A stretch of DNA of 64,000 bases, from contig NZ_JAXMIH010000005.1 in NCBI RefSeq assembly GCF_034366625.1, positions 124,001 to 188,000 of the forward strand. Direction: 5' to 3'. Each line of letters starts with the position of its first letter. Position 1 is the stretch's first letter. The notes beneath the pieces are model-generated. The model had not been told where the DNA came from, did not search any database, and saw nothing but the letters and a program-made list of their open reading frames with translations. This document shows, piece after piece, positions 9,136 through 44,931 of this stretch. The position numbers and the translations under genes were made by a program. The stretch is from Prosthecobacter sp. Lineage in GTDB: Bacteria > Verrucomicrobiota > Verrucomicrobiia > Verrucomicrobiales > Verrucomicrobiaceae.

Positions 9136-9188
9136 GATTGGAAAGTAGTAATGAGCTTCAGCTCGTTCTGATGCGCGGTGAAGACGAG

Positions 9189-12269: not shown

Positions 12270-12361
12270 AATGCCGCGCAGTGTCTCAGGATCGGCGGGC
12301 AATGGAAATTGATATTTCCAGGTGGCATCATTGATAAAGCGTATAGCCTTCCACTCGTCCC

Positions 12362-13237: not shown

Positions 13238-13299
13238 ATCTCACGGCCATGTTTCACTTCATGCTTGCATCCATGCCCAGAATCCGTCATGCCCGTGGC

Positions 13300-14208: not shown

Positions 14209-14268
14209 GAATTCGCAGATTTGTCTTGTGGTTGCGGCCCAGCTACTGACAGAATCACGGCGAATTTC

Positions 14269-14859: not shown

Positions 14860-14865
14860 GCGCGT

Positions 14866-15990
14866 TCAGGTTCCCGCGCCAATCGTGATCCGTTTCTCCG
14901 GAATCGGCGATTCGATGATGCCGAGCTCGGTTTCCTGCTTCAAACGGAGCTGTCCGCAGGCAGCGGCGATGTCATGGCCTTTTTCGCGGCGCAGTGTGGC
15001 GGTGACACCGGCATTCGTGAGTACGGCGAGAAAGGCGTCCTGACGTTCTTCGCTGGGGCGTGCCCACTCCAGGCCATCGACGGTGTTGTAGGGGATGAGA
15101 TTGACCTTCGCATTGGCAGCACGGGCGCGTTTGGCGAGCGCATGGGCTTGTTGCATGCTGTCATTCACATCGGAGATGAGGATGAACTCGAAGGTGAGGA
15201 ACTGCTTCCGCTTTTGATTCCAGTAGTCGAGCGCCTCGAACAACTCGGCGAGGTTGTGCTTGCGGTTCACGGGCATGATTTTCTCGCGCACCTCGTCGGT
15301 GGCGCCGTGAAGGGAGATGGCGAGGCGGATTTGCAGTGGGAAATCGGCGAGTTTTTTGATCTGAGGTGCCAAGCCGCTCGTGCTGACGGTCATGTGGCGC
15401 GCGCCGATGCCGACACCCCAGTCGGCGTTGAGGATCTCAATGGCCTTCGTGACGTTCGAGTAGTTCGCGAGCGGCTCGCCCATGCCCATGAAGACGAGGT
15501 TGTCCACGCGTTCGCCCGCATAGGCCTCGACCTGCACGATCTGCTCGACGATTTCGCCGGCGGTGAGATTGCGCGCGAAGCCGGCGAGACCGCTGGCGCA
15601 GAATTTGCAGTCGTAAGCGCAGCCGACCTGGCTGGAGACGCAGAGTGTACGGCGGTCGGATTTGCCGCCATAGAGCGCGGGATTGGCCGGAATGAGCACG
15701 GTTTCGACGTAGCGGCCGTCATGCAGCTTGAGGAGGAATTTGCGCGTCGTGTCGGCGGAGCCGGTGATTTTGGCGATGCTGAGCGAGCGTGTGACGAAAC
15801 GTGTGGCGAGCGCCTCGCGCGTCGCTTTCGGCAGGTTCGTCATTTCATCGAAACTGGCGGCGCGTTTGGCGAAAACCCACTCCACGAGCTGTTTCGCACG
15901 AAACGCGGGCTGGCCGAGTTCCGCGAACACATCGGCGATTTCCTCCGGCTTCATGCCGAGGAGTGCCTGGGGTGTGCTGGCGGTGCTCAT
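14866..15990 (-). CDS. rlmN: Dual-specificity 23S rRNA/tRNA adenine C2-methyltransferase RlmN
   Basis: A 374-residue radical SAM enzyme that methylates C2 of A2503 in 23S rRNA and A37 in some tRNAs. The cluster motif CAYDCKFCASG (CxxxCxxC) is present, as are LVFMGMGEPLANY, STSGLAPQI, LAISLHGATDEVREKIMPVN and the C-terminal RREKGHDIAAACGQL, which holds the second catalytic cysteine. Length is normal. The start at 15990 (MSTASTPQALLGMKPEE) is chosen over a longer in-frame extension. It is convergent with the upstream cNMP-binding gene, with 6 bases between stop codons. Confidence 0.96.
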   Translation of the reverse strand: MSTASTPQALLGMKPEEIADVFAELGQPAFRAKQLVEWVFAKRAASFDEMTNLPKATREALATRFVTRSLSIAKITGSADTTRKFLLKLHDGRYVETVLIPANPALYGGKSDRRTLCVSSQVGCAYDCKFCASGLAGFARNLTAGEIVEQIVQVEAYAGERVDNLVFMGMGEPLANYSNVTKAIEILNADWGVGIGARHMTVSTSGLAPQIKKLADFPLQIRLAISLHGATDEVREKIMPVNRKHNLAELFEALDYWNQKRKQFLTFEFILISDVNDSMQQAHALAKRARAANAKVNLIPYNTVDGLEWARPSEERQDAFLAVLTNAGVTATLRREKGHDIAAACGQLRLKQETELGIIESPIPEKRITIGAGT

Positions 15991-16060
15991 GGGGGCTGTG
16001 ATAGTGGCGGTGGATTTGAAATTTGGCATTTCAAATCTCAAATCACCGCCGCAAGCGGGG

Positions 16061-16924
16061 CTAGGGCTGCCGCTCCTGCTCGCGGAACTGCGTGGGCGTG
16101 AGCTTGGTCATCTTCTTGAAATCCTTGGAAAAGAAGAACTGGTCGTGATAGCCGACCTGGCGGGCGATTTCTTTGACGGGATCGTCGGATTCGATGAGGC
16201 GGCGCTTTGCCTGATTGATGCGCTCCCGCCGCAGCCAGTCGATGGGGCTGGTGCCGATGGCGGCTTTGAACTGGCGGCTGAAGTGGCTCTCGCTCATGCC
16301 GCTGAGGTTCGCCAACTCGGACACGCGCATGGGCAGATGGAAGTAGAGGCGCATGCGTTCGAGCGCCTTGGATACGGCCTGTGGCAGCTCTGGCTGCACG
16401 AGACCTGGTTCGGAAAGGCGCACGTGGAAGGCGAGGCCGATGATGGCGGCCACGGCGGCGCTGGCGAGCGCGGCATCGCTCGGACGCGTGCCGCTCATGT
16501 ATTGAAACGCATTTTGGAACTCGCGCATGACGGCCTGCTCGTTGATGCCTTCGAGCACAGGCTGCGAGCGCACTTGCAGCAGCTCGGCGATACGGTCGAG
16601 CGAACGGCCTTCAATCCGCATCCAGTAAAGCTCCCACGGATCACGATTGTGCGCCCCGTAGAGGTGCGGGTGGTGGCAGTTTACCCAAACGAGGCCACCA
16701 GGGCCGACCTCGTGCCGTTTGCCGCCCACTTGCACCCAGCCACGGCCCTTGAGGCAGAGAATCAGCTCGTGGCCCGGATAGGTCTCGCGCTCGATGCGAT
16801 GCTCAAAGCCAGCCTTCAGGTGCCCGGCACGCACCACGGAATAAAACAAATCACGCTGCCAGTCCGCAGGAGTGGCGTAAAGATTCGTCAGGAAGACGGT
16901 TTCCTGGAACAGCGTGGCTGCCAT
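16061..16924 (-). CDS. AraC family transcriptional regulator
   Basis: A regulator of about 287 residues. The N-terminal cupin sensing domain (YPGHELILCLKGRGWVQVGG, GGLVWVNCHHPHLYGAHNRDPWELYWMRIEG) is followed by a C-terminal double helix-turn-helix of about 100 residues (MRVSELANLSGMSESHFSRQ, INQAKRRLIESDDPVKEIAR, QVGYHDQFFFSKDFKKMTKL). This layout is common in regulators of sugar use. A GGAGG lies just before, so the start could also be the ATG at 16939. The gene is divergent from the FmdB-type gene, and no sugar operon lies next to it. The target is unknown. Confidence 0.92.
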   Translation of the reverse strand: MAATLFQETVFLTNLYATPADWQRDLFYSVVRAGHLKAGFEHRIERETYPGHELILCLKGRGWVQVGGKRHEVGPGGLVWVNCHHPHLYGAHNRDPWELYWMRIEGRSLDRIAELLQVRSQPVLEGINEQAVMREFQNAFQYMSGTRPSDAALASAAVAAIIGLAFHVRLSEPGLVQPELPQAVSKALERMRLYFHLPMRVSELANLSGMSESHFSRQFKAAIGTSPIDWLRRERINQAKRRLIESDDPVKEIARQVGYHDQFFFSKDFKKMTKLTPTQFREQERQP

Positions 16925-17084
16925 GAACGAATAATACATCTCCTCCCACCATGGTGTCGAGGACTGATTACATCTTCCAAAAGCTGAGCCGGGGAAAATC
17001 CTTTTGCAGCAGAGGGTGCAGCACGGCATAATCACCACCCCGTTGCGCGATCCCAGAAACCCCCCGCGCACTTTTTCCAGAACC

Positions 17085-17402
17085 ATGCCCACCTACGATT
17101 ACGAATGCCAGACGTGTGGCCACCAATTTGAAGCCAAGCAGTCCATGAAGGACGCGCATCTCACCGACTGCCCGCAGGAGGGCTGTCCCGGTCCGATCAA
17201 GCGCAAGATCGGCCTCGGTGCCGGTTTGATCTTCAAAGGCTCCGGCTTCTACATCACTGACTACCGCAGCGATTCCTACAAAGCCGGTGCGAAGAAAGAT
17301 TCTGAAGGCTCAGCTTCATCTACAAGCACACCGGCCGCTCCCAGCACGCCTGCGCCTGCCAGTCCTGCACCCGCGCCTGCGAAAACAAGCACGGCGGCCT
17401 GA
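17085..17402 (+). CDS. FmdB family zinc-ribbon protein
   Basis: A 105-residue protein starting MPTYDYECQTCGHQFEAKQS, the standard opening of the FmdB/CxxC_CxxC_SSSS family. The zinc ribbon has CQTC then C-P-Q-E-G-C near residues 12-35, followed by KRKIGLGAGLIFKGSGFYITDY, which is also characteristic. The C-terminal third is a low-complexity Ala/Ser/Pro/Lys tail. The family is described as putative regulatory proteins, but a firm molecular role is lacking. Confidence 0.92.
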   Translation: MPTYDYECQTCGHQFEAKQSMKDAHLTDCPQEGCPGPIKRKIGLGAGLIFKGSGFYITDYRSDSYKAGAKKDSEGSASSTSTPAAPSTPAPASPAPAPAKTSTAA

Positions 17403-17431
17403 TTCTGCCTTCACACACACCTCCTGCCGCC

Positions 17432-18004
17432 GTGACTCACCACCTGCTTCAGACGCTGCGGTTGCTTTTGGTCAGTGCGCTGGCGGGTGCAGCTTGGGTG
17501 GCGCATCGTCCTGCCGAACTGCCCAACACACCCCCGCCTAGCGCTGCCAAGGCCGATGACATGCTCGACATGCTGCGCCAGACGGCGATCAAGCGCGCGG
17601 CGGTGATGGAAATCAGCGAGGCCGAGGTGAACCGTCATCTTACCACGACGCTTGCGGGCAAGGTCGCGAACGTGTTTGGTGACTGGGTGGCCTTTGATGG
17701 AGCGCGCATTGACTTGGAGCCGGACAGCGCACGACTTTTCCTGGTGTGGAAGCTCAAAGGCCACACGCGCACCGCCAGCGTCGATCTCGCCATCAGCCGT
17801 GATGCGGACAACTTCCACGTCGAGCTGTTGCACGGTGCCTATGGTCATCTTGGCATGCCGCGCGGCATGATGCGCCCGCTGTATCCATCTTTGCGTGCGG
17901 TGGCGGAGGCGCTCGACCCTGAGATTCGGGCGCTGTTCCAGATGACCCGAATCACCATCGCCAAGGACAAACTCGTGCTCGATCCCCGCTTCCCTTCCGC
18001 ATGA
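17432..18004 (+). CDS. Hypothetical exported or membrane-anchored protein
   Basis: A 190-residue protein with a GTG start at 17432 (MTHHLLQTLRLLLVSALAGA), which reads as a signal peptide or membrane anchor. The rest (about 40-190) has alternating beta and helical patterns (VAFDGARIDLEPDSARLFLV, FHVELLHGAYGHLGMP) that I cannot assign to a family. Its stop overlaps the start of the next gene (ATGA at 18001-18004), so the two are translationally coupled and probably act together. Confidence 0.8.
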   Translation: MTHHLLQTLRLLLVSALAGAAWVAHRPAELPNTPPPSAAKADDMLDMLRQTAIKRAAVMEISEAEVNRHLTTTLAGKVANVFGDWVAFDGARIDLEPDSARLFLVWKLKGHTRTASVDLAISRDADNFHVELLHGAYGHLGMPRGMMRPLYPSLRAVAEALDPEIRALFQMTRITIAKDKLVLDPRFPSA

Positions 18005-20469
18005 TTCGTCATCTTCCATTCGTCCAGGCGGTCGTGATCGCGTTCATCTGCGCCACACTGTTTGCCACGGCGCAGACGCCCGCGCCGCCCTTCCCGCAGC
18101 TCACCAAGGAGCAGAAAGCGGCCGCTGCGGCCATCGAGGCACCAAAAACTTTCACGCCACCACCGCTGCCAGGCCAGTTGCAGGGCAACGCGCCTGCCAA
18201 GCCTGCGGCACCATCCACCCCGCCTACAGAACCGGCGAAGGCAGTCGTGCCGCCGCCTGCTGGCAATGCCGCCAGCAAGATGCAGGTGCTCGAAGCCGTC
18301 ACGCAGCCTGCGGCCAATCAGGTGCCGCGATCGGCAGCTCCTTCGGATAAAATCCCCATCACCAGCTCCACCAGCACCACAGGACAGTTCATCGTGCATG
18401 GGAAGGTGTTTCAGACTCGCAGTGCCATGTCCACACGCTGCGAGGAGATTTCGCAGGAGCTGCGCAAGGTGCTTCATGACAAGGAGCCATGGGTGCTTCC
18501 CGTCGTCGTGCTGCTCAACACAGGCGAAGAAGCCACCAAATCGAAGGGCCCGCCGATTTCCACCGCCATCACCGAACTCACGCACGGCGGATTTCATGTG
18601 CAAGTCACGATCAACGAACGTCCCGGTCTCAAAGAGACGGACTTACGCAAGGAAGTTGCGCGCGCCCTCCTCGCCGAACGCATCCTGCGCAATCATCAAA
18701 AAATCACCACGCCCGAAGGGCGCCTGCTGCTCCCGGACTGGATCATGACCGGTGTGCTGCACGCGATGGACTACCGCGCCAGCGCCCGTCCCAGCGCCCT
18801 GTTTTCCACCATCTTCCGCAGCGGCAAAATCTACGGCATCGAGGAGATCATCGAGGCCTCTCCGGTCGAGATGGACGGCCTCTCCCGCACCATCTACGAA
18901 ACCTCCTGCTGCGCCCTGGTGCTCGCACTTGTCGATCAGCCGGACGGCTCTCAGCGCTTCAACAAATTCCTCAACGCACTTGCCAGCGATCCACGTTCCG
19001 AGCGCGAGCTGCTCAGCGCCGCGTTTCCAAATTTCGCCGCCTCGGCTTCGAGTTTGAACAAATGGTGGTCGCTCCAGCTTGCCACGCTCTCCAAACCTGG
19101 CATCGCCGAGCCGTTCACCGCCGTCGAGAGCCTCAAGGCCATCGAAGGCGCCATCACCATTCGCTACGAGGCAAAACCCGACGAGGTGCCGAAGAACGTG
19201 AAACCGCGTCCGTTTGTCCTTCCCACACCTCTGGTCGTTGCGTCGAGTGAACCAAGGCCGCTGCAGCCATCAGTCACAGACGATCCGCCCAAACCGAAAT
19301 CCAAGGACACGGCCGAACCCAAAGTCGGCGAAGCAGAAGATGCGAGCGATGAAAAACCGAAACGCAGCCTGTGGCGACGTCTGCTTTTCCTCGGCGATCC
19401 CGATGAGGACGAGTCCAAAACCGCTGAAACGCCTGTCGCGAATGAGGCTGCCCACGATGCGGAAAAGAAGCCGGGATTCTTTGGGCGTCTCTTTGGCGCC
19501 GGTTCCGACGAGAAGAAGGAAACAGACAAACCCAAGGCCGCTGAAGTCGAAAAACCCAAGACCGCAGCAGCAGACGAACTGGGGGCCAAGGAAGAAAAGA
19601 AACCCTCCCTGCTCAATCCGCTGAACTGGTTCCGCGGTGGCAGCAAAGACGAAGAGCCGAAAAAGGAGGATCTGCCTGTCAAAGATGCGCAGGCACCCGG
19701 CGCACCGTCTGCCTCTCTCGATGTTGCCCGCCTCATTTCGCCGGCGCTCGCTGATGCCTGGCAATGGCTTGCTCCTGCGGCGCCACGCATGACCGCAGAA
19801 CCGCTGTTTGATTTCCGCAAACGCAAACCCAAGCCGGACGAAGAGAAAAAGGAGGAAACACCCCGGAAGGCTGCTGCCAAACAGGATAGCAAGCCGCGCA
19901 CGAGCAATCCCAACTCCAAATCGACCTCCAAACCGTCAACGGCTCCCTCCGGCACGCCTCGCACCAATAATCCGAACGCCAAACCCGTTCCGGCGGAACT
20001 GATCAAACCCGCCACCGGTGCCGCCCCGCTCACATCCGCCGCCAAATCCGGCTTGGTACCTGTGGTTCTGCCACTGGAGGAATACCAGCACATCCTCAAG
20101 CGCCCGGATCGCGTCCAAATCCTCAACTACAACGTCGCCTCTCTCCGGGCGCTAGAACTGCGCGTCAGCGTGCTGTTCCGTCCTGTCGTCACCGGTTATC
20201 TCGCCGCTGTGGTTGACCTGCAGGCAGGAAAAACCAAGGACATGGAGAAGCGCCTCGCCACGCTGCATGCGTTTGCCCTCGTCGCGTATCAGAAATCCAT
20301 CGCCGTGCGCGATTACCTCGACTGGTTCGAAGCCAGCGAAAACGGCCGCCTCTCCGGCAAGTTCGACGACTTCCTCGAACTTCCCGCCATCATCCAAAAA
20401 GAACTCCCGCCACGCACCGATCCGATCTCAAAGTATCTCGATGCCATCGATAAGGAGTTCACGAAGTAG
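18001..20469 (+). CDS. Large unknown exported protein with low-complexity linkers
   Basis: An 822-residue protein with an N-terminal signal peptide (MIRHLPFVQAVVIAFICATL, cleavage likely near FATAQ) and a Pro/Ala-rich linker to about 130. A folded region spans about 130-390; its pattern (KEVARALLAERILR, LLLPDWIMTGVLHAMDYRAS) resembles peptidase MA-like domains, but no HExxH is visible. Between 454 and 551, three short aromatic/basic motifs (KRSLWRRLLFLGD, KKPGFFGRLFGAGSDE, KKPSLLNPLNWFRGGSKDE) sit in acidic Lys/Glu-rich spacers. A second linker and a C-terminal folded region (about 680-822) follow. It is coupled to the preceding gene. No function can be assigned. Confidence 0.82.
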   Translation: MIRHLPFVQAVVIAFICATLFATAQTPAPPFPQLTKEQKAAAAAIEAPKTFTPPPLPGQLQGNAPAKPAAPSTPPTEPAKAVVPPPAGNAASKMQVLEAVTQPAANQVPRSAAPSDKIPITSSTSTTGQFIVHGKVFQTRSAMSTRCEEISQELRKVLHDKEPWVLPVVVLLNTGEEATKSKGPPISTAITELTHGGFHVQVTINERPGLKETDLRKEVARALLAERILRNHQKITTPEGRLLLPDWIMTGVLHAMDYRASARPSALFSTIFRSGKIYGIEEIIEASPVEMDGLSRTIYETSCCALVLALVDQPDGSQRFNKFLNALASDPRSERELLSAAFPNFAASASSLNKWWSLQLATLSKPGIAEPFTAVESLKAIEGAITIRYEAKPDEVPKNVKPRPFVLPTPLVVASSEPRPLQPSVTDDPPKPKSKDTAEPKVGEAEDASDEKPKRSLWRRLLFLGDPDEDESKTAETPVANEAAHDAEKKPGFFGRLFGAGSDEKKETDKPKAAEVEKPKTAAADELGAKEEKKPSLLNPLNWFRGGSKDEEPKKEDLPVKDAQAPGAPSASLDVARLISPALADAWQWLAPAAPRMTAEPLFDFRKRKPKPDEEKKEETPRKAAAKQDSKPRTSNPNSKSTSKPSTAPSGTPRTNNPNAKPVPAELIKPATGAAPLTSAAKSGLVPVVLPLEEYQHILKRPDRVQILNYNVASLRALELRVSVLFRPVVTGYLAAVVDLQAGKTKDMEKRLATLHAFALVAYQKSIAVRDYLDWFEASENGRLSGKFDDFLELPAIIQKELPPRTDPISKYLDAIDKEFTK

Positions 20470-35129: not shown

Positions 35130-36650
35130 ATGAGTGCCCATACTTCCGCCACATTGTCCGCATTGCCTCTTTGTGCCGCGAACATCACTTTCATCCAACG
35201 GGCCAACAAACTCCTCATCGGCGGTCAGTGGGTGCCATCGGCCAGTGACAAAACCTTCCCCAGCTACAATCCAGCGACCGGCGAAGTGCTGACGCATTGC
35301 GCGGAAGGTGACGCGGAGGACATCAACCGTGCAGTCAAGGCGGCACGAAAGGCGTTTGAATCGGGACCGTGGAAGACGATGACTGCCTCGGAGCGCGGGC
35401 GCATCGTGTGGAAGATCGGCGATCTGATGCTGCAGCACATCGATGAGCTGGCGGAATTGGAAGCGCTGGACAACGGCAAGACGCTGACCGAGGCGCGTTA
35501 CGTCGATCTGCCGCTGTCGGCGGACGCATTTCATTACATGGCGGGCTGGGCCACGAAGATCACGGGACAGACGATCAATGTGTCCGTGCCGTATGCGCCG
35601 GGGGCGAAGTTTCATGCTTATTCGCTGAAGGAACCTGTCGGCGTGGTGGGGCAGATCATTCCGTGGAATTTTCCGCTGCTCATGGCTGCTTGGAAGCTGG
35701 CGCCGGCACTCGCTGCGGGCTGCACGATCGTCTTGAAACCAGCGGAACAGACCCCGTTGACCGCGCTGCGGCTCGGCGAACTGATGATCGAGGCCGGTGT
35801 GCCGGAAGGCGTGGTGAACATCGTCACGGGCTACGGCGAGACGGCGGGCGCGGCGCTCGCGGCGCATCCAGATGTCGATAAAGTGGCCTTCACCGGCTCC
35901 ACCGAGGTCGGGAAGCTGATTTTGAAGGCGGCAGCGGGGAATTTGAAAAAAGTAAGCCTCGAACTCGGTGGCAAATCACCGCAGGTGATCTTCAAGGACG
36001 CGCCGAGCATCGAAGCGGCGATCGCGGGCGCGGCTCAGGGCATCTTTTTCAATCAAGGCCAGTGCTGCGTGGCCGGGACGCGGTTGTTTGTGGAGCAGGA
36101 CATCTTCGAAGAAGTCACGCAGGGCATCGCGGCGGCGGCGAAGAACATCAAATTGGGCTTCGGGCTTGATGCAGGCACGCAGATGGGGCCGCTGGTGTCG
36201 CAGGAGCAGCTCACGCGGGTCACGGGTTACATCGAGTCCGGCAAACAAGATGGCGCAAATTTCCTCACTGGCGGTGCGCGGCATGGGGACAAGGGTTACT
36301 TCGTCGAGCCGACGATCATCACCAACACGCGGCCGGAAATGAAGGTGGTGCGTGAGGAAATCTTCGGTCCCGTGATCGTGGCGGAACCTTTCACTGACGA
36401 GGCGGATGTGATGCGTCGTGCCAATGACACCACCTATGGCCTCGCCGCAGGCGTGTGGAGCAATGATGTGGCGCGTGCCCACCGTGTGGCCGCCGCCTTC
36501 CACGCGGGCACCGTGTGGGTGAACTGCTACTACGTTTTCGATTCGGCGCTGCCGTTTGGCGGCTACAAGCAATCCGGCTGGGGGCGTGAGATGAGTGGTG
36601 AGGCGCTGGAGCTGTACACGGAAACCAAGGCGGTCATCATCGGTCTGTGA
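35130..36650 (+). CDS. Aldehyde dehydrogenase family protein
   Basis: A 506-residue NAD(P)-dependent aldehyde dehydrogenase of the betaine/phenylacetaldehyde dehydrogenase-like group. It shows VGQIIPWNFPLLMAAWKLAP, the coenzyme loop VAFTGSTEVGKLILKAA, the general-base motif VSLELGGKSPQVIF and the catalytic cysteine Cys313 in FNQGQCCVAGTR, plus EEIFGPVI and PFGGYKQSGWGREMS. Length is normal. It ends 4 bases before the GTG of the next gene, so the two may share a transcript. A choline dehydrogenase-like GMC gene lies downstream of that, which could fit alcohol-to-aldehyde-to-acid oxidation, but the substrate is unproven. Confidence 0.94.
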   Translation: MSAHTSATLSALPLCAANITFIQRANKLLIGGQWVPSASDKTFPSYNPATGEVLTHCAEGDAEDINRAVKAARKAFESGPWKTMTASERGRIVWKIGDLMLQHIDELAELEALDNGKTLTEARYVDLPLSADAFHYMAGWATKITGQTINVSVPYAPGAKFHAYSLKEPVGVVGQIIPWNFPLLMAAWKLAPALAAGCTIVLKPAEQTPLTALRLGELMIEAGVPEGVVNIVTGYGETAGAALAAHPDVDKVAFTGSTEVGKLILKAAAGNLKKVSLELGGKSPQVIFKDAPSIEAAIAGAAQGIFFNQGQCCVAGTRLFVEQDIFEEVTQGIAAAAKNIKLGFGLDAGTQMGPLVSQEQLTRVTGYIESGKQDGANFLTGGARHGDKGYFVEPTIITNTRPEMKVVREEIFGPVIVAEPFTDEADVMRRANDTTYGLAAGVWSNDVARAHRVAAAFHAGTVWVNCYYVFDSALPFGGYKQSGWGREMSGEALELYTETKAVIIGL

Positions 36651-36654
36651 TCTT

Positions 36655-39600
36655 GTGAAATGCGCGCAATGCAGCTCTGACAACCCGGCCGAGGCCAAAT
36701 TTTGCACCCAATGCGGGGGCGAATTGAAGCGTCGTTGCGCGCAGTGCCTGACGGAAATCAGCGCCAAGGCTAAATTCTGTCATGAGTGCGGCACGCCGGT
36801 GGGAGTGAGTCCAAACCAAGTCGGCGTCGCCGAACCGGTCGCCGCCGAGCCACGCGTTTTGCCCACGGTCACGCGGGAAATGGCCTCTGCGGCCATCGCT
36901 CCGGCGGATGGTAACACGGCGGAGCGCCGCCAGCTCACGGTGATCTTCAGCGATCTCGTGTCCTTCACGCAGTTGTCGCAAAAAATGGACCCGGAAGACC
37001 TCAACACCGTGGTGCATGACTACTACAACGTGTGCAAGGCCGTGTGCAAAAGCTACGAGGGCCATGTGGCCAACTATCTTGGCGACGGCGTGCTGATGTT
37101 CTTCGGTTACCCCGTGGCGCATGAAGACGATGCCAGCCGTGCCGTGCGCACCGGCCTGGCGATCATCGAAGGCGTGTCCGCGCTCAATCAGCGCACGCAC
37201 AACACCGGCGGCATCAAGCTCCAGGTGCGCGTGGGCGTGCATACCGGTCTCATGATCGTGGGCGATGATCGTGCGGGCAACTGGCAGCAAATGGCGCTGG
37301 GCGAAACGCTGAACATCGCCGCACGCGTCCAGGCGGTGGGGCAGCCGGACTCCGTGGTGGCCAGCGCGGTGACGCAGAAACTCATCGAGGGCTTTTTCTC
37401 CTGTCGCAGCCTCGGCATTCACACGCTGAAAGGCGTGGAGCGGCCGATGGAGGTGTTTGAAGTCTCGCATGAAACGACCGCGCGCAGCCGTCTCGAAGCT
37501 GCGGGCCGTGGCGGCCTCACACCGCTCACCGGTCGCGAGAGCGAGGTGCAGCAGTTGCTTGAATGCTGGGAGGAAAATTATCAGGGCAAGGGACAGGCCG
37601 TGCTGCTCAGTGGCGAGGCAGGCATCGGCAAATCACGGCTGGTGCAGATGCTCAAGGAGCATGTCGCCAATGTGCCGGGCGCGTGGCTCACTCCGTGCCA
37701 GTGCTCGCCGTATCACAAGAGCACGGCGTTCCATCATTACGCCGATCTGCTGGAGCGCGTGGTGCTGAAATTTGACCGCAATGAACGCCCGCGTGACCGG
37801 CTGCAAAAAGTGGAGGGCTTGCTGCGCCAGTACGGTATTGAGCTGGAGGTGACGCTGCCTTCGCTCGCGGCGCTGCTGTCCATCCCGCCAGAGGCCGGCT
37901 ACACGCCGGTGGAAGAGCCGCAGCAGCAGAAACGCGCCATTATTGAGAGCTATGTTCACATCTTGAAGGAGCGTTCGAAGAAACAGCCGCTGCTGCTCGT
38001 GGTGGAGGATTTGCAGTGGGCTGATCCGTCCTCGCTGGATATTTTGGGCGAGGTGGTGGCCGCTGTGGCGGACCACCGCATCCTGGCGCTGTTCACCTGC
38101 CGGCCGGATTTTGATTCACCGTGGAAAAATGTGCTGCAGGTGAAACACATCGCCCTCCAGCGGCTCAATCCGCAGCAGGTGCGCACGATCTGCCTGCGTG
38201 TTGCCCATGGCAAGGCGCTGCCGGAGGAAGTGATCGAGCAAATCATCTCCCGCACCGATGGCGTTCCGTTGTTTGTCGAGGAATTGACGAAAATGGTCAT
38301 GGAGTCCGGCATGTTGAAGGAATTGGGAGATTCCTTTGCGCTCTCCGGCCCGCTGCCATCGCTGGCGATCCCCACCACGCTGCAAGATTCGCTGATGGCG
38401 CGTCTGGACCGGCTGCACACGGTCAAAGAGATCGCACAGGTAGGCTCCGTGATGGGTCGCGAATTCATCTTTGAGCTGATGCGGCATGTGTATCCGCTGG
38501 AGAACTCGTTGCTGCGCGTCAGCCTTGCGCAGCTCGTGGATGCGGAGCTGCTGTTTCAGACCACGGGCGACTCCGACGCCACCTACACGTTCAAGCACGC
38601 GCTCGTGCAGGAGGCGGCCTACCAGTCGCTGGTGAAGTCACGCCGCCAGCATTACCACCGCATCATCGCGCAGGCGCTGGAGGAGCATTTCCCGCACACC
38701 GCCGCCACGGACATGGAAGTGCTGGCGCATCATTACACGGAGGCCAATCTGCCGTGGCAGGCCGTGCCGTATCTGCTCAAGGCCGGTGCCAGCGCCGCGA
38801 ACCGTTCCGCGCATTCGGAAGCCATCACGCATCTCAATCGCGCCATCGAGTTGCTCAAAAAACTGCCCGACAACTCCCAGCGCTGGCAGCACGAGATCCA
38901 GGCGCTCATCGCTCTCGGTGTCTCGCTCACCGCGACGAAAGGTTACGGCGTCAAGGAAGTCGAGCGCACCTACACGCGTGCGCGTGAACTGAGCGAGCAG
39001 TGCGGCACGCCAGGACAGTTGTTTCAGTCACGCTACGGCCTGTGGCGGCTGCACATGCTGCGCGCGGAATACGGCATCGCCACGCAGCAGGGCGAGGAGT
39101 TGCTCGAACTCGCCAACCGGCAGGACAACACGGCCTTTCACATCGCCGCGCATCGTGCGCTGGGTGCCACGCTGTTCTATCGCGGCCAGTTTCAGCGCTC
39201 CAACGAGCACGTCGCCAGCGTGATCGCCGCCACGACCACCACCGAGGGCGACAGCGACACGCTGGTGCGTGACATCTACGACGTCGTCGATCCCCGCGTC
39301 ACCTGCCGCTCCTATCTCTCATGGATCTTGTGGATGCTCGGCCATGTCGGCCAGGCGCAGAAGGAAAGCCAGCGTGCCATCGCGCTCGCGGAGCAGTTGC
39401 AGCATCCGTTTTCCATCGCGCTGGCCCTCAGCTTCGCCACCTGGCTGGAGCAGTTTTGCGGCAATGTCGCGCGCGTCAAAGAACTGGCCGCACGCGCCAT
39501 GGCGCATTGTAAAATGCACGGCTTTCCGTTCTGGATCGGCTGGAATCAAGTCATGCTCGGCTGGGCCGCCGCGCATGAGAAAGGCACCATCGGCGATGCC

Positions 39601-40059
39601 GTCTCCCTCATTCACAAAGGCCTCGCCTACTGGAATGAAAAAGGTTCCAACCTCGGCCGCGGTTACTTCCTCTGCCTGCTGGCCGAGACGCACATGCGCC
39701 GCGACGAATGGGCGCAGAGCATGGACGCGCTGTCCCAGGCCCAGGCCTTCGCGAATGAAACCGACGAACGCTACTGGGAGGCCGAGCGCTTCCGTCTCAG
39801 TGGCGAGTTGCTGATGCGCCAGGGGCAATCCTCCGAGCAGGCGGAAATTTTCTTCCAGCAGGCGCTGGCCAAGGCGCGTGAGCTGTCCGCCCGCTCTCTT
39901 GAACTGCGCGCCGCCACCAGCCTCGCGCAATTGGCGCAGAAGAATGGTCGCGCGGGTGATGCCAAAGCCACGCTCGCCGCCGTGCTCACGACGTTCGCCG
40001 AAGAACAGGACACGCCGGACATGGCCGCCGCCCGCACGCTCCTCGCCGAGCTGGTCTGA
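36655..40059 (+). CDS. Zinc-ribbon, class III cyclase, AAA/STAND ATPase and TPR protein
   Basis: A 1134-residue signalling protein with a GTG start 4 bases after the aldehyde dehydrogenase stop. Two zinc ribbons come first (Cys3, Cys6, Cys17, Cys20 and Cys28, Cys31, Cys42, Cys45). A class III nucleotide cyclase domain (about 90-285) keeps both metal aspartates, Asp100 in VIFSDLVSF and Asp144 in YLGDGVLMFF, and the Asn/Arg pair in GETLNIAARVQA. An ATPase follows with Walker A GEAGIGKS (320-327) and Walker B LLLVVEDLQWADPS, then a helical and TPR-like C-terminal half (about 690-1134). The catalytic residues suggest an active cyclase controlled by the ATPase/TPR part. The signal is unknown. Confidence 0.93.
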   Translation: MKCAQCSSDNPAEAKFCTQCGGELKRRCAQCLTEISAKAKFCHECGTPVGVSPNQVGVAEPVAAEPRVLPTVTREMASAAIAPADGNTAERRQLTVIFSDLVSFTQLSQKMDPEDLNTVVHDYYNVCKAVCKSYEGHVANYLGDGVLMFFGYPVAHEDDASRAVRTGLAIIEGVSALNQRTHNTGGIKLQVRVGVHTGLMIVGDDRAGNWQQMALGETLNIAARVQAVGQPDSVVASAVTQKLIEGFFSCRSLGIHTLKGVERPMEVFEVSHETTARSRLEAAGRGGLTPLTGRESEVQQLLECWEENYQGKGQAVLLSGEAGIGKSRLVQMLKEHVANVPGAWLTPCQCSPYHKSTAFHHYADLLERVVLKFDRNERPRDRLQKVEGLLRQYGIELEVTLPSLAALLSIPPEAGYTPVEEPQQQKRAIIESYVHILKERSKKQPLLLVVEDLQWADPSSLDILGEVVAAVADHRILALFTCRPDFDSPWKNVLQVKHIALQRLNPQQVRTICLRVAHGKALPEEVIEQIISRTDGVPLFVEELTKMVMESGMLKELGDSFALSGPLPSLAIPTTLQDSLMARLDRLHTVKEIAQVGSVMGREFIFELMRHVYPLENSLLRVSLAQLVDAELLFQTTGDSDATYTFKHALVQEAAYQSLVKSRRQHYHRIIAQALEEHFPHTAATDMEVLAHHYTEANLPWQAVPYLLKAGASAANRSAHSEAITHLNRAIELLKKLPDNSQRWQHEIQALIALGVSLTATKGYGVKEVERTYTRARELSEQCGTPGQLFQSRYGLWRLHMLRAEYGIATQQGEELLELANRQDNTAFHIAAHRALGATLFYRGQFQRSNEHVASVIAATTTTEGDSDTLVRDIYDVVDPRVTCRSYLSWILWMLGHVGQAQKESQRAIALAEQLQHPFSIALALSFATWLEQFCGNVARVKELAARAMAHCKMHGFPFWIGWNQVMLGWAAAHEKGTIGDAVSLIHKGLAYWNEKGSNLGRGYFLCLLAETHMRRDEWAQSMDALSQAQAFANETDERYWEAERFRLSGELLMRQGQSSEQAEIFFQQALAKARELSARSLELRAATSLAQLAQKNGRAGDAKATLAAVLTTFAEEQDTPDMAAARTLLAELV

Positions 40060-40081: not shown

Positions 40082-41602
40082 ATGACCACAGACACCTATG
40101 ACTACATCGTCGTCGGCGCAGGCTCCGCAGGCTGCGCCGTCGCCGCACGGCTTTCCGAAAATCCAGCCGTGCGCGTGCTGCTGCTCGAAGGCGGCGGCAC
40201 GCATGACCACGCGAACGTGCATGATCCGGTGCAATGGCCCACGCTGTTCTATGGCGAGCTGTCCTGGAACTATGTGACGGCACCGATGAAGTCCTGCCTC
40301 AACCGCGTTGACCATGTGCCACGCGCGAAAATGCTCGGCGGCTGCCACAGCCACAACGCGAACGCCTGGGTGCGCGGCCATCCCTCCGATTACGATCGCT
40401 GGGCCGCTGCGGGCAATGACGGCTGGAGCTGGAAGGACGTGCTGCCCGTGTTCAAGAAAATCGAAGACTGGCAAGGCCCCGCCGATGAACTGCGCGGCAC
40501 TGGCGGCCCGATGTATGTCACACCACCGGTGAATCCGAACCCGGTGGCCGCTGCATTCGTCGAATCCGGCCCCGCCATCGGTTTGCCGAAGGTGTTCGAC
40601 AACAACAGCACGTCGATGGAAGGCACCAGCTACTTCAATTTTACCGTGAAGGACGGCAAACGCTTCAGCGTCGTGAACGCCTACCTGCTGCCCGCGATGC
40701 AGCGCAAAAATCTCACTGTCATCACGAATGCGGAGACGCATCGCGTCATCATCGAAGGTGATCGCTGTGTCGGTGTCGAATTTGCACACGAAGGCAGGCT
40801 GCAAACCGTCCGCGCTGACAAAGAAGTCGTGCTCAGCGCCGGCGTCATCGGTTCGCCGTCGATCCTATTGCGTTCCGGCATCGGTCCTGCGGCTGAATTG
40901 GAACAACTCGGCATCAAGGTCGCGCTGGACCTCCCAGGCGTCGGCAAAAACCTCCAGGACCACGTTTTGTTCGCCGGCATCAACTACGAATGCAAAATCG
41001 AACTCCCTGCTCCGCGCAACAACGGCGCGGAAAGTACCATGTGGTGGAAGTCCGACTCCGCACTCGCCACGCCCGACATCCAGCCCGTCATCATCGAGTT
41101 CCCCTTCGCCACGCCCGATCTCGCGCCGCTGCTGCCGAACCAAAACTGCTACGCCATCGCTCCGAGCATCGTGCAGCCGCAGAGCCGCGGCTCGCTCACC
41201 CTCGCTTCCGCTGATGCCAGCGTGGCGCCCATCATCGACGTGAACTACTTCGAGGCCGAGGCCGATGTAAACGCGATGCACTTCTGCATCGAACTGTGTC
41301 GCGAAATGGGCGCTTCATCCGCCTTCGACCACTTGCGTAAACGCGAAGTCATCCCTGGCAAGCAGGGACGCATCGAAATGATCGAGACGCTAAAAAAAGG
41401 TGCCACCACCTACTTCCATCCCACCAGCACCTGCAAGATGGGCAGCGACGACCTCGCCGTCGTCGATTCACGTCTGCGCGTGCGCGGCATCACCGGCCTG
41501 CGCGTCGCGGATGCCTCCATCATGCCCACGATCACGACGGGCAACACCAACGCGCCCTCCGTCATGATCGGCGAGCAGGCGGCCGCCTTCATTTCAGCGT
41601 AA
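40082..41602 (+). CDS. GMC family FAD-dependent oxidoreductase (choline dehydrogenase-like)
   Basis: A 506-residue glucose-methanol-choline oxidoreductase. The FAD site is DYIVVGAGSAGCAVAARLSE at the N-terminus with VLLLEGGG after it. GMC signature 1 is around KMLGGCHSHNANAWVRGHPSDYD, signature 2 near VVLSAGVIGSPSILLRSGIG, and the C-terminal active-site region is YFHPTSTCKMG followed by GLRVADASIMPTITTGNTNA. There is no signal peptide, so it is likely cytoplasmic. It precedes the DNase II-like gene by 25 bases on the same strand. Whether the oxidoreductase and nuclease cooperate is unclear; they may simply share a transcript. Confidence 0.94.
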   Translation: MTTDTYDYIVVGAGSAGCAVAARLSENPAVRVLLLEGGGTHDHANVHDPVQWPTLFYGELSWNYVTAPMKSCLNRVDHVPRAKMLGGCHSHNANAWVRGHPSDYDRWAAAGNDGWSWKDVLPVFKKIEDWQGPADELRGTGGPMYVTPPVNPNPVAAAFVESGPAIGLPKVFDNNSTSMEGTSYFNFTVKDGKRFSVVNAYLLPAMQRKNLTVITNAETHRVIIEGDRCVGVEFAHEGRLQTVRADKEVVLSAGVIGSPSILLRSGIGPAAELEQLGIKVALDLPGVGKNLQDHVLFAGINYECKIELPAPRNNGAESTMWWKSDSALATPDIQPVIIEFPFATPDLAPLLPNQNCYAIAPSIVQPQSRGSLTLASADASVAPIIDVNYFEAEADVNAMHFCIELCREMGASSAFDHLRKREVIPGKQGRIEMIETLKKGATTYFHPTSTCKMGSDDLAVVDSRLRVRGITGLRVADASIMPTITTGNTNAPSVMIGEQAAAFISA

Positions 41603-41627: not shown

Positions 41628-44615
41628 ATGAGCACCACCAGCATCAGCCTCGGCACGGAGGACCGTCTCACGATTCTCTATTCGTATCCCAACGTCACGG
41701 GAGACACAAAATCGCTCGCGGACACCATCGCACATTGGTTTGGGCAAACCCTCGTCCGCGATGGCTGCGCGAGCGCCAGCGCCAGTGTCCGCGTCGATGG
41801 CACGGGCAATTATTTCCTCGACCTCACCGGCCCGGACAATCTGGCCGCCAGTTTCGCGGGTTACGCCAAGCGCCTGCCGCAATTCCTCGCCAATGGTTGG
41901 GCCGCCTGGACCAACGTCGTGCCGATGCTGCAAAAGACCGGCAAGTGGGATCCTTGCCCTGACAAACCGGCCTCATCCTATCTGCCATGGCGCTTCTTTC
42001 TCCCGCACGGCATGCCCATGCTGAATCAAAAGGCGCTGCTGTTCTTCCATTACCCGCCGATCCGCCTGCTCCAAACCAATCAAGACTACCTCGACGATCC
42101 CGTGCCCGTGCGCTGTGAGGAACTGCTCGCCGCCAACGGCGTCACCTCGCTCCCGGGCGATCTCGCCAGCGGTGACATCATGCTCTTTAACACCGTCATG
42201 GATGCCACGCCCATCGGTGCCGAGGATGATCAAGGCTCCAAGAACCCGCAGCAGTGCGCCAAAGACAACTGCCCCGCCACCGCCTACGATCCAGATTACG
42301 GCCTCATCCCCATTCAGTACTTCCCCGACTACCAAAAGGCCCAGGTCTCGCTGCTTCTCAATCCCTCGCCCAAGTCCGGCTACACCGCGCCCATCGTCAT
42401 CTACGGCGCACATCCGCTGGCGACCTTCAACAAGCTCTATGGCACGAAACTGAAGGTATATCAGACCACTGTCGTCACTGGCATTCTTCCCGGCCTGAAA
42501 ACGCCCGTGCTGGCCTCCTCACACCCGTATGTGTTCTACGGCATGGCCCAAGGCTTCGGCCCTGGTCAAATCGGTGCCGGCAGCATTCTCCCACCCTTCA
42601 AGGATGATAAGGGGCAGATGCACTACCCGCTCAAGGATGCCACCGCGCAGATGATCAAAGACCTCGCCGTCGCCCGCTGGCTCAAGTCGATGACCGACGA
42701 CCCGTCACAACCTGTTGCCGACGTCTGGACCGCCGCGCAGAAGTTCTGGAACGATCCTGCGCAAACCAACACCGTCAGCGACCTCGTGCAGCATCAAGGC
42801 TCGCTTTGGTACTACAATCTCCCCAAGCTGGACTTTAAGTTCAAAGTCCCGCTGTCATCTGCAAACGCCACCAAAGTCACCGCTGCCAAACCCGCAGCAC
42901 CCGCCAAACCCATCGCCACCACCATGAGCACCACCGCAGCATCCGTGAAATCAACCACCGGCCTCCAGGTCATCGGCGACAACGGCACGCCCGTTGACTG
43001 GTGGTTCATCTACAAGGTCTCGGCGGAATCGCAGTCACCAGGCAAACAGAAAGCCACCGGCCAGGAGTTCCTCTATTTCGACTCCGACATGGCCGCCAAG
43101 TCCGGCGCGAAGCCCGTTCTCTCCAAGAACCTCATTGATAAAAGCGGCGCGCTCTTTGACACCTACAGCCAGTTGTTCACGCCTGCCGCCAAGGCCAACA
43201 AAGACCTCGGTTACTTCTGCTACAACGACGAAGACCGTCACGAGCCAGGTAGCGCCACCGCCGGCACCGGCCCCTCGCCCTGCGGTCACTGCAAAGGCGC
43301 GCTGGCCTTCGATCTCGCCAGTGATTCCGCCCTCTGGCTCATCCACTCCGTGCCGCTGCTGCCGATGGCAGCAGAGTTCGTTTATCCCGGCACCGGCCTC
43401 AAAATGGCGCAGACGATGCTCTGCATCCAGCTCCAGAATGCCGCCGCCACCAAGAACATCGCCCAGCTCATGCTGGATGCGCACGGCCCGAATGTGCATG
43501 TCTCCTCCGACCTGCTCACCAACGCCAACAACAAGGTGAACAACTTTGCCAACCCGCCCGTGACCAACGTGCCCGGCAAACTCCGTGCGCTCGACACGAA
43601 TGATCCGCGCCTCGCGCTGATGGCGAACAACATTCCCAACAACCATGACGGCTCCAAAATCAAGCCCTACAGCGGCCAGGTGCCGTTCCAGTCCAAGGGC
43701 GGCCAGGCCTTCCTCGCCATCGCCAAAAATCGCGCCTGGGGCGATCAAACGGACAAGCTCGACACCACCCGCAAAGACTTCTACGACGACCTCGTCAGCG
43801 TCGCGCTCAACGAGAACATCGAAGTCGAGACCTGGGAGAATGCCGGGATCGACAAAACGACCGGCAAGCTCAAAATTCCGCCGCCCAATGAAAACGGCGA
43901 GCAGCATTCCGTCGAGAACATGCTCTCCGTGAACCTCGCCCCCATCGTCAGCCCGCCCGATATTCCGTGGTCCTGGGGTGAGGCCGTCGATCACGCCAAG
44001 CTCGCCATCTCCGACCACACCAATCCCGCCGGCACCGACCGCTGGGTCTGCGTCGGTGACATCAACTTCACCAACTCCATGGAAAAACGCGGCGGCGGCA
44101 CCTGTGCCTTCATCTGCGAGCCGCTCTGGAATGCGCTGAGCCAGATCCTCCTCGCCACGCCTGAAGCAAAAGCCAAGTCCTCAGGCGCAGCCGCCAAGAA
44201 GCCCGCTGCACCAACGAAACCTGCCGCCAAACCAAGCGCCGCCAAAACGGCTGCGGCCAAGCCTGTGGTGGCGAAGAAAGTCGCTGCCAGAAAGCCGGTC
44301 GCCAAAAAGAAGGCTCCAGCAAAGAAGACAGCTCCGAAGAAAGCCGCGCCGAAGAAGCAGCCGGTCAAAAAAGCCGCGCCAAAGAAAAAGACGCCAGCCA
44401 AGGCAGCGTCGAGGAAAAAAGTTCCGTCCGGCAAGAAGACCGGAAAGTCCAAGGTCATACCGAAGAAGAAAACAGCGGTGAAGAAGGCTCCAGCCAAGAA
44501 AACCGCGCCCAAAAAGGCGGCACCGAAGAAAACTTCCAAGAAGGCAGCGCCTAAAAAACCTGCCGCCAAGGCCGTGAAAAAGAAAGCGGCCAAAAAAGCC
44601 GGGAAGAAACGTTAG
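41628..44615 (+). CDS. DNase II family nuclease domain fused to a histone H1-like Lys/Ala/Pro tail
   Basis: A 995-residue protein in three parts. Residues 1 to about 410 form a domain I do not recognise. After a Ser/Thr/Ala linker, about 450-845 matches the DNase II fold: PVDWWFIYK (from 455), YFCYNDED, then the first HxK motif HCKG (His554, Lys556), ALWLIHSVPLLP, the second HxK in DHAK (His789, Lys791), and CVGDINFTNSMEKRGGGTC (808-826), which parallels the CVGDMN...RGGGT end of animal DNase II. Both catalytic HxK motifs of this phospholipase D-like enzyme are kept. The last about 140 residues are repeats of the AAPKK/APAKKTAPKK kind, resembling the tail of histone H1. There is no signal peptide. 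Domain assignment is from motif recognition; the fusion itself is seen directly. Confidence 0.85.
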   Translation: MSTTSISLGTEDRLTILYSYPNVTGDTKSLADTIAHWFGQTLVRDGCASASASVRVDGTGNYFLDLTGPDNLAASFAGYAKRLPQFLANGWAAWTNVVPMLQKTGKWDPCPDKPASSYLPWRFFLPHGMPMLNQKALLFFHYPPIRLLQTNQDYLDDPVPVRCEELLAANGVTSLPGDLASGDIMLFNTVMDATPIGAEDDQGSKNPQQCAKDNCPATAYDPDYGLIPIQYFPDYQKAQVSLLLNPSPKSGYTAPIVIYGAHPLATFNKLYGTKLKVYQTTVVTGILPGLKTPVLASSHPYVFYGMAQGFGPGQIGAGSILPPFKDDKGQMHYPLKDATAQMIKDLAVARWLKSMTDDPSQPVADVWTAAQKFWNDPAQTNTVSDLVQHQGSLWYYNLPKLDFKFKVPLSSANATKVTAAKPAAPAKPIATTMSTTAASVKSTTGLQVIGDNGTPVDWWFIYKVSAESQSPGKQKATGQEFLYFDSDMAAKSGAKPVLSKNLIDKSGALFDTYSQLFTPAAKANKDLGYFCYNDEDRHEPGSATAGTGPSPCGHCKGALAFDLASDSALWLIHSVPLLPMAAEFVYPGTGLKMAQTMLCIQLQNAAATKNIAQLMLDAHGPNVHVSSDLLTNANNKVNNFANPPVTNVPGKLRALDTNDPRLALMANNIPNNHDGSKIKPYSGQVPFQSKGGQAFLAIAKNRAWGDQTDKLDTTRKDFYDDLVSVALNENIEVETWENAGIDKTTGKLKIPPPNENGEQHSVENMLSVNLAPIVSPPDIPWSWGEAVDHAKLAISDHTNPAGTDRWVCVGDINFTNSMEKRGGGTCAFICEPLWNALSQILLATPEAKAKSSGAAAKKPAAPTKPAAKPSAAKTAAAKPVVAKKVAARKPVAKKKAPAKKTAPKKAAPKKQPVKKAAPKKKTPAKAASRKKVPSGKKTGKSKVIPKKKTAVKKAPAKKTAPKKAAPKKTSKKAAPKKPAAKAVKKKAAKKAGKKR

Positions 44616-44622
44616 CAGAACT

Positions 44623-44931
44623 GTGGACGACCTCGCTGAACGCATGCGTGCCGATCTGGCGGAGATCGGACGCACGTTCATGCCGTTCGGCAAGTACGGA
44701 CCACAGCACTTTCCACCGAACGGGGTGCCGATTTACGACATTCCGGCGGAATATCTTGGCTGGTTCGCGAACAAGGCCGGATTCCCGAAAGGCAGGCTCG
44801 GCGAACTGCTGCGCATGGTGCATCAGATGAAGGCGGACGGCTCTGACACTGCCTTCGATGTCTTCCGCAAGCGCCATGGCCGCACGGATCTCAAACCGGC
44901 GAAGCGGAGGTCGTGGAAGTTTGACGAGTGA
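44623..44931 (+). CDS. DUF3820 family protein
   Basis: A 102-residue protein with a GTG start 7 bases after the DNase II-like gene. It has the DUF3820 core FMPFGKYGPQHFPPNGVPIYD, IPAEYLGWFANKAGFPKGRL and GELLRMVHQM, then a basic tail. DUF3820 domains occur alone or next to or fused with exonuclease-type proteins, and the family carries a quorum-sensing virulence factor label of uncertain meaning. Close coupling to a nuclease gene supports a nucleic-acid role as an accessory or modulator. It is convergent with the DUF420 gene (6 bases between stops). Confidence 0.8.
   Translation: MDDLAERMRADLAEIGRTFMPFGKYGPQHFPPNGVPIYDIPAEYLGWFANKAGFPKGRLGELLRMVHQMKADGSDTAFDVFRKRHGRTDLKPAKRRSWKFDE

Follow-up and report, generated by a model that had tools for sequence, protein, structure and literature searches.

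A gene joining a domain of predicted uracil-DNA glycosylase fold to DNase II and a histone H1-like tail in Prosthecobacter and its distant relatives

We analyzed a 64,000-nt stretch of DNA from Prosthecobacter sp. (Verrucomicrobiota; assembly GCF_034366625.1, contig NZ_JAXMIH010000005.1, positions 124,001 to 188,000, forward strand), hereafter the window, in which one open reading frame (ORF) joins an N-terminal domain with a predicted uracil-DNA glycosylase (UDG)-superfamily fold to a DNase II domain and a Lys/Ala/Pro-rich tail. We consider the chances about even that the product is a two-headed DNA-destroying enzyme, combining base excision, strand cleavage and a DNA tether, with a probable role in defense. 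The gene is laid out as follows, in window coordinates:

41628–44615, plus strand: fusion gene of predicted UDG-fold domain, DNase II and Lys/Ala/Pro tail (995 aa, ATG start; supported by the ORF, Pfam and purifying selection)
41628–42860, plus strand: N-terminal domain, residues 1–411, without library match; predicted UDG-superfamily fold (AlphaFold2, VIA-align)
42861–42974, plus strand: low-complexity linker, residues 412–449, weakly conserved in sequence
42975–44153, plus strand: DNase II domain, residues 450–842 (PF03265, E 3.1e-51; 5i3e, E 1.8e-40)
44175–44612, plus strand: Lys/Ala/Pro H1-like tail, residues 850–995, net charge +57

The gene is under purifying selection, because the ratio of nonsynonymous to synonymous substitution rates (dN/dS) against its nearest relative, at locus L003, is 0.17 for the N-terminal domain, 0.11 for DNase II and 0.34 for the tail; synonymous divergence of the linker is saturated in this comparison. 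Signal peptides, here and below, were judged from a hydropathy window and by eye, not with a trained predictor. The fusion ORF has no hydrophobic leader in the hydropathy window, in agreement with a first-pass annotation of this DNA that had reported a missing signal peptide.

Library searches left the N-terminal domain without a name. Residues 1–411 matched 0 Pfam families at E ≤ 10, four paralogues of the domain had no NCBIfam match, and PADLOC matched neither the fusion (E ≤ 0.1) nor the homologous domain of locus L166 (E ≤ 0.001). A profile search of the PDB gave no credible relative, only two thioredoxins at E 1.1–1.2. Among 13 members of the family searched against Pfam at E ≤ 10, stray matches to SelB_WH1 (0.03) and MtrH (0.28) occurred in one member each and were taken as chance. 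An AlphaFold2 model of the window domain, with a predicted local distance difference test (pLDDT) of 81.7 and a predicted template modeling score (pTM) of 0.86, pointed to the UDG superfamily. Its top Foldseek match was a Thermus UDG (probability 1.00, E 0.01), and VIA-align ranked the family-4 UDG 4zby best, with Z 11.8 over 187 residues at 3.2 Å. By title, 49 of the best 50 VIA-align rows were UDG, UdgX, UNG, TDG or vaccinia D4, and the remaining one was a phage DNA polymerase (Z 8.3). A paralogue from Algoriphagus, 27% identical to the window domain, was modeled with pLDDT 80.5 and pTM 0.84; its best VIA-align match, T. maritima UDG, likewise reached Z 11.8 and covered 188 of that enzyme’s 191 residues at 3.5 Å. 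Ranks 1–41 of its best 50 rows belonged to the UDG superfamily, with a drop to Z 4.5 at rank 42, although Foldseek alone gave this model little support, with UdgX at the top (probability 0.63, E 0.35). The N-terminal domain is a conserved family with a predicted UDG-superfamily fold. It is not placed in any known UDG family and is described here as having the predicted fold only. The first-pass annotation had counted about 410 unassigned residues ahead of DNase II; this still holds for Pfam, NCBIfam and PADLOC, but the stretch is a conserved domain with a predicted fold that is also encoded by separate genes.

Within 17 aligned members, H141, P143, P144, R162, D192, P195, A198, H299 and D345 are invariant. 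Four sites are candidates for the active center:

42048–42059, plus strand: motif-1-like H141-Y-P-P144, following predicted strand 137–140; placed by order and spacing
42087–42089, plus strand: Y154, candidate base-stacking aromatic (cf. F54 of Tth UDGa); Tyr in 13/17 members, Phe in 4/17
42201–42203, plus strand: D192, candidate base-reading acidic residue, invariant in 17/17 and ending predicted strand 189–192; equivalence putative
42522–42524, plus strand: H299, candidate for the catalytic His of motif 2 as in UDG families 1 and 4 (cf. H155 of Tth UDGa); invariant in 17/17, located after predicted strand 291–297 and in the order expected

The first motif reads [HD][YF]PP, with one Ser in place of Tyr/Phe, and sits where motif 1 is expected; only its Pro is common to the UDG forms GQDPY, GxNPG or GE[AG]PG. 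The distance from this Pro to the aromatic residue is 11 residues in the window domain and 10 in several paralogues; family-4 UDGs have 11 (P131 to F142 of A2). D192 and H299 are also kept, by eye, in the further members L166, L170 and L171, while H141 is replaced by Asp in L166 and L170. Excerpts of the published account of family-4 UDGa name E41, F54, N80 and H155 as its functional residues, with N80 reading the base and H155 stabilizing the leaving group (PMC5387724). At the putative place of the uracil-reading Asn (N80/N123), the N-terminal family carries an invariant Asp. Available parts of the reports on two antiphage DNA glycosylases describe acidic residues here: in Brig1 the Asn position is the essential E147 (PMC11078745), and in Brig3 D127 is essential, the substrate being 5-hydroxymethylcytosine (5hmC), although uracil is also excised from oligonucleotides (PMC13160076). 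We infer that D192 corresponds to this position. Given an Asp where UDGs read uracil with Asn, we predict that the target is not plain uracil but a base of cytosine type, probably a modified one.

The second domain, residues 450–842, scores 174.9 bits with Pfam DNase_II (PF03265; cut-off 23, E 3.1e-51, profile positions 4–321 of 326), bearing out the first-pass assignment by profile search, and the fusion ORF is the sole such match in the window’s own 6.65-Mb genome. The closest solved relative is a bacterial DNase II (5i3e/5unb, phmmer E 1.8e-40), which we take to be the Burkholderia enzyme, with both HxK motifs inside the match. All six landmarks listed in the first-pass annotation were found in order and in place, starting at residues 455 (PVDWWFIYK), 554 (HCKG), 571 (LIHSVP), 788 (DHAK), 808 (CVGDIN) and 821 (RGGGTC). 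Its claim that both catalytic motifs are intact was likewise upheld across 53 DNase II-domain ORFs from related loci:

43287–43295, plus strand: first HxK, H554/K556; His and Lys kept in 51/51 rows with letters, 2/53 rows gapped
43992–44000, plus strand: second HxK, H789/K791; His and Lys kept in 50/50 rows with letters, 3/53 rows gapped

DNase II cleaves the DNA backbone without a metal ion, leaves 3′-phosphates, has an acid optimum and is chiefly associated with the lysosomes and apoptosis of animals. Its supposed rarity in bacteria was only partly supported: one scan yielded 52 loci, and seven phyla are represented among the tree rows, but just 6/189 genomes of the window’s relatives encode it. 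None of the 53 DNase II ORFs, nor any of 13 neighboring phosphoesterases, showed a clear leader in the hydropathy window. Among the DNase II genes collected, that of Algoriphagus boritolerans (L050, 7977–8732; genome G485) contains an in-frame TAG.

The tail described in the first-pass annotation as polycationic and H1-like proved to be so. Its 146 residues include 54 Lys, 40 Ala and 19 Pro, with a net charge of +57. It resembles HC2 proteins in make-up while scoring under the curated cut-offs (Pfam HC2, 21.8 bits versus 40; NCBIfam hist_H1_lk_Burk, 28.1 versus 80), and nothing else in the window’s genome is HC2-like at E ≤ 0.01. Such tails recur. Considering ORFs of at least 200 aa, 8/52 DNase II ORFs end in Lys-rich tails versus 3/390 other ORFs of the same loci, and two of these three are themselves further, divergent DNase IIs. 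The trait requires at least six changes on the DNase II tree. H1-like tails are a repeated feature of bacterial DNase II and are not peculiar to the window protein. Additionally, the window’s genus has another DNase II type, highly divergent in sequence, at L057 and L058 (genomes G037 and G039; 1216–2784, plus strand), with 522 aa and a Lys-rich tail of its own. The L057 protein matches PF03265 at E 2.1e-19, and this type is directly followed by a PF04185 phosphoesterase.

Our scan of genome contigs, with peptide patterns taken from both domains, recovered 52 loci. The N-terminal domain is fused to DNase II in the window, in L002 (Planctomycetaceae) and in L003 and L004, the last of these being contig CAMCWM010000023.1. 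The L003 and L004 fusion proteins are the same as those of G014 and G036, members of the window’s own genus; a single genus therefore accounts for three of the four intact fusions. A further Planctomycetaceae fusion, at L005 (7998–10083), is split over three ORFs, reflecting either a broken gene or an error of the metagenome-assembled genome (MAG). L003 and L004 additionally encode separate N-domain paralogues (453 aa in the former, 443 and 367 aa in the latter). Elsewhere the two domains lie in separate genes: the N-domain gene directly precedes DNase II in the gammaproteobacterial MAG L046, where the DNase II start is visible in another frame, and is found at a distance of ~2 kb in L030 (Phycisphaera MAG) and of ~2.2 kb in L047–L051 (Algoriphagus, Gillisia). 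Separate N-domain genes near DNase II thus occur in Bacteroidota, Pseudomonadota and Planctomycetota. The figure of 12/49 genomes with an N-domain overstates co-occurrence, since the scan patterns came from both domains, while L047–L051 entered on DNase II matches only. Broader sampling found the domain in 1/288 genomes from the window’s phylum, 3/395 Bacteroidota genomes (all previously found loci), 4/245 genomes of the Algoriphagus family, of which L166 was new, and 3/369 genomes of a class-wide sample around Aestuariicella (L078, L170 and L171).

In the DNase II tree (52 rows), association with the N-domain requires four changes, as does association with a phosphoesterase. The four fusions form a clade with support 99/86, within which the Planctomycete L002 groups with the window and L003 to the exclusion of L004 (100/99); bootstrap values are not fully settled, and the branch leading to the divergent L057 is very long. 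Because presence is patchy and L002 is nested inside the Verrucomicrobiota copies, lateral transfer of the fusion is likely. An origin from phages or plasmids was rejected: phage records gave no match, plasmid records gave one with DNase II only, and viral contigs contained no N-domain.

Upstream of the fusion, three genes on the same strand follow closely on one another:

35130–36650, plus strand: aldehyde dehydrogenase (NCBIfam, below cut-off among the matches listed); cluster membership uncertain
36595–40059, plus strand: regulator with zinc ribbon, class III nucleotide cyclase, AAA_16 and TPR (Pfam), 22 bp before the GMC gene
40082–41602, plus strand: GMC-family FAD oxidoreductase (PF00732/PF05199), 25 bp before the fusion

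The cyclase-AAA regulator, GMC oxidoreductase and fusion are probably in the same operon. A GMC gene also precedes the fusion in L002, L003 and L004, with an alpha/beta-hydrolase-like gene in between in L003 and L004. We grouped neighboring ORFs into components by single linkage, using flanks of up to 8 kb in 55 sequences (54 loci and the window), with a minority of members checked by Pfam. The AAA-regulator component is present in 23/55, that is, in 22 other loci, and three members checked by Pfam carry AAA_16 with kinase and/or cyclase domains. PADLOC matches on these regulators, which might have suggested Pycsar or kinase-based defense, are to generic kinases and cyclases and were discounted as evidence. 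GMC and aldehyde dehydrogenase components were counted in 5 and 6 sequences, the latter corresponding to 5 other loci; among the matches listed, both resemble choline/betaine-aldehyde dehydrogenase enzymes below curated cut-offs. On the 3′ side, 7 bp after the fusion, the window encodes a small PF12843 protein (putative quorum-sensing-regulated virulence factor; 44623–44931, plus strand), followed on the minus strand by DUF420 and by SCO1-like and CtaB-like ORFs, the last two assigned by eye; L004 shows the same arrangement. In the Planctomycete L002, a TIR-nSTAND1-WD40 gene (10811–14023, minus strand) stands directly downstream of the fusion.

Clusters with unfused DNase II have other regular companions. 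In 16/49 genomes versus 0.42 expected, DNase II has a PF04185 phosphoesterase, with a match to PC-PLC below cut-off, no more than 12 kb away (within 1 kb in 12 of them), a count of pairs that are not phylogenetically independent and that leaves three weaker matches apart. No fusion genome is among the 16, and the genomes of L002–L004 lack PF04185. The Algoriphagus and Gillisia DNase II clusters (L047–L051, L080, L081, L167) encode glutathione synthetase, a GCS2 ligase, gamma-glutamyl cyclotransferase and a HAD phosphatase, together with a 238-aa protein without a Pfam match and a ~1800-aa kinase-AAA-GAF-cyclase protein. In the three Algoriphagus clusters read at length, a short second N-domain lies beside the phosphoesterase in L080 and L081 and is missing in L167; in L079, a short N-domain gene is divergently oriented beside a phosphoesterase. 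The gammaproteobacterial L016, L027, L032, L038, L041 and L045 carry DNase II between a giant kinase/AAA-component gene and the phosphoesterase. A pair of small conserved genes, one of them resembling gamma-glutamyl cyclotransferase, accompanies the giant gene. These six genomes contain no N-domain.

One N-domain gene stands in recognizable defense surroundings. At L166, a 381-aa N-domain gene overlaps with its end an S1/P1 nuclease gene (PF02265, E 9.8e-45), within an island (7687–18057) that has AbiEii upstream and PbeA (1037 bits), a DndD/PbeC-like ATPase and DndA/SspA downstream. The N-domain therefore partners two unrelated nucleases, DNase II and S1/P1, in one case in a defense island. 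The first-pass annotation had offered scavenging, processing of self DNA or defense as possible roles; the Pbe/Dnd and AbiEii island gives defense one direct contextual support, scavenging draws on the recurrent phosphoesterase, and all three still depend on interpretation. For the window protein, we favor the following course. The UDG-fold head would excise a base, predicted to be of cytosine type, the DNase II head with its two HxK motifs would cut the backbone of the same DNA, and the Lys/Ala/Pro tail may hold the enzyme on its substrate. The protein would be made in the cytosol, probably from an operon with a cyclase-AAA sensor that may control it, and its most likely role would be defense against foreign or modified DNA. 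A more specific version we propose tentatively and with less confidence. Here the glycosylase would read a modified cytosine, and a nuclease fused to it or encoded nearby (DNase II in fused or adjacent genes, S1/P1 in another lineage) would cut the same DNA under kinase/cyclase-AAA control, as a new kind of antiphage restriction in four phyla.

Several observations weigh against the favored reading. Because sequence profiles show no kinship, the case for a UDG is built on the predicted fold, the order of the motifs and conservation. Neither of the best Foldseek values (0.01 and 0.35) reaches E ≤ 0.001, and the two AlphaFold2 models, built on the same 13 sequences, are not fully independent. 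PF03167 is unmatched by any of the 13 N-domain members at E ≤ 10. With hhalign, a comparison to nine family-4 UDGs aligned 13 columns around motif 2 (P 0.37), and the H299 stretch was the only one brought against UDG motif 2, at a level that is not significant. A comparison to 40 UDGs of several families (44 candidate ORFs picked by motif, four dropped as wrong frames) scored 14.4, the level of 30 column shuffles (mean 14.3, maximum 19.9), and did not bring the motifs together. Motif 1 reads HYPP instead of GxxPG, and the proposed equivalences of D192 and H299 draw on order, spacing and secondary structure. Furthermore, three Pseudomonadota homologues of the N-domain have likely export signals by hydropathy and eye, a poor fit to a cytosolic enzyme: L078 (9190–10524, minus strand) and L171 (9064–10473, minus strand) with lipoprotein-type starts and L170 (8284–9642, plus strand) with a Sec-type start. 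By eye, the neighbors of the L170 gene include cyclotransferase-like, kinase-AAA-like and phosphoesterase-like genes, and no DNase II was seen in the 18.5 kb read. The S1/P1 partner may also be exported. The GMC, aldehyde dehydrogenase and glutathione genes of some clusters suggest metabolism. Lastly, one clear defense island was seen, and PADLOC was unmatched by the fusion, although the window was not surveyed as a defense island.

Among the alternatives, DNA scavenging for phosphate, bases and carbon would have the nuclease cut, the glycosylase-like domain free bases and the phosphoesterase release phosphate. The excess of PF04185 near DNase II (16/49 genomes versus 0.42 expected, in rows related by descent and without a fusion genome), the existence of exported N-domain forms and the S1/P1 partner of L166 all fit this scheme. 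However, the 53 DNase II ORFs and 13 phosphoesterases lack clear leaders and would act in the cytosol, and kinase/cyclase-AAA sensors are unusual partners for it; we consider scavenging rather unlikely. Those same missing leaders agree with a suicide effector, in which a STAND-like kinase/cyclase-AAA sensor of infection or damage would loose nuclease and phosphoesterase on the cell’s own DNA and lipids. The AAA-regulator component in 23/55 clustered sequences, with AAA_16 and kinase and/or cyclase domains in the three checked, and the TIR-nSTAND1-WD40 gene after the L002 fusion point the same way. AAA regulators of this kind are common in these bacteria, and some may adjoin by chance, while killing the cell itself would not call for a domain that selects bases. 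Self-destruction thus appears unlikely, and more so than scavenging.

A substrate other than DNA is improbable. Under this explanation, the DNase II-like head would be a PLD-superfamily phosphodiesterase acting with the PC-PLC-like phosphoesterase, GMC oxidoreductase and aldehyde dehydrogenase, for example in choline lipid breakdown, and the UDG-fold domain would be inactive. The likeness of the GMC and aldehyde dehydrogenase proteins to choline/betaine-aldehyde dehydrogenase enzymes and of the phosphoesterase to PC-PLC, all below cut-offs, speaks for it, whereas the UDG-like fold, the two unrelated nuclease partners and the polycationic tails point to nucleic acid, and the GMC and aldehyde dehydrogenase components occur in just 5 and 6 of the 55 sequences. 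Choline-lipid breakdown was rejected as the leading interpretation and kept as a rival. A repair enzyme, whose N-domain removes damaged bases while DNase II trims, would suit the predicted UDG fold, but PF03167 UDGs were present in 59/59 phylum genomes sampled compared with 1/288 for the N-domain, and a nonspecific endonuclease such as DNase II would be a poor choice for repair. We regard repair as very improbable.

Returning to the favored DNA-destroying enzyme, a glycosylase-like family that is unmatched in the Pfam, NCBIfam and PADLOC copies searched now has a predicted fold and candidate catalytic residues and is joined to DNase II; the best-ranked matches in the open literature gave no account of the fusion or of the N-domain family. 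If both activities exist, a single chain able to excise bases and cut strands would be better equipped against phages with modified DNA than a lone glycosylase, and which base the enzyme reads becomes a concrete, testable question. Should the antiphage proposal be true, a DNase II fold of animal lysosomes and apoptosis would also serve bacterial immunity.

Each part of the fusion has a known counterpart from which it departs. With histone H1-like proteins (Pfam HC2, NCBIfam NF038053), the window tail shares a Lys/Ala/Pro repeat composition but differs in scoring under both cut-offs and in being the tail of an enzyme. The Burkholderia DNase II has the PF03265 domain and both HxK motifs in common with the fusion, yet is a 358-residue chain without a UDG-fold domain and without a tail of comparable size. 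With family-4 UDGs (T. maritima 1l9g, S. tokodaii 4zby, T. thermophilus UDGa) and UdgX, the N-domain shares its predicted fold along almost the entire UDG chain (Z 11–12), as well as, for family 4, a candidate motif-2 His after a late core strand and an aromatic 10–11 residues after the motif-1 Pro. It differs from them by the lack of significant sequence similarity, HYPP for GE[AG]PG, Asp for Asn, and extra inserts and an N-terminal part. Further counterparts are the antiphage DNA glycosylases Brig1 and Brig3 (PMC11078745, PMC13160076), compared here by description only, which belong to the UDG superfamily and use an acidic base-reading residue, as the window domain may do. In the parts of the accounts available, the best structural match of Brig1 is also S. 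tokodaii UDG (Dali Z 9.2; PMC11078745), and Brig3 has a partner enzyme, BapA (PMC13160076). According to the same excerpts, which mention no fusion to a nuclease, Brig1 is mainly monofunctional and Brig3 single-domain, while the window protein is a fusion with a nuclease.

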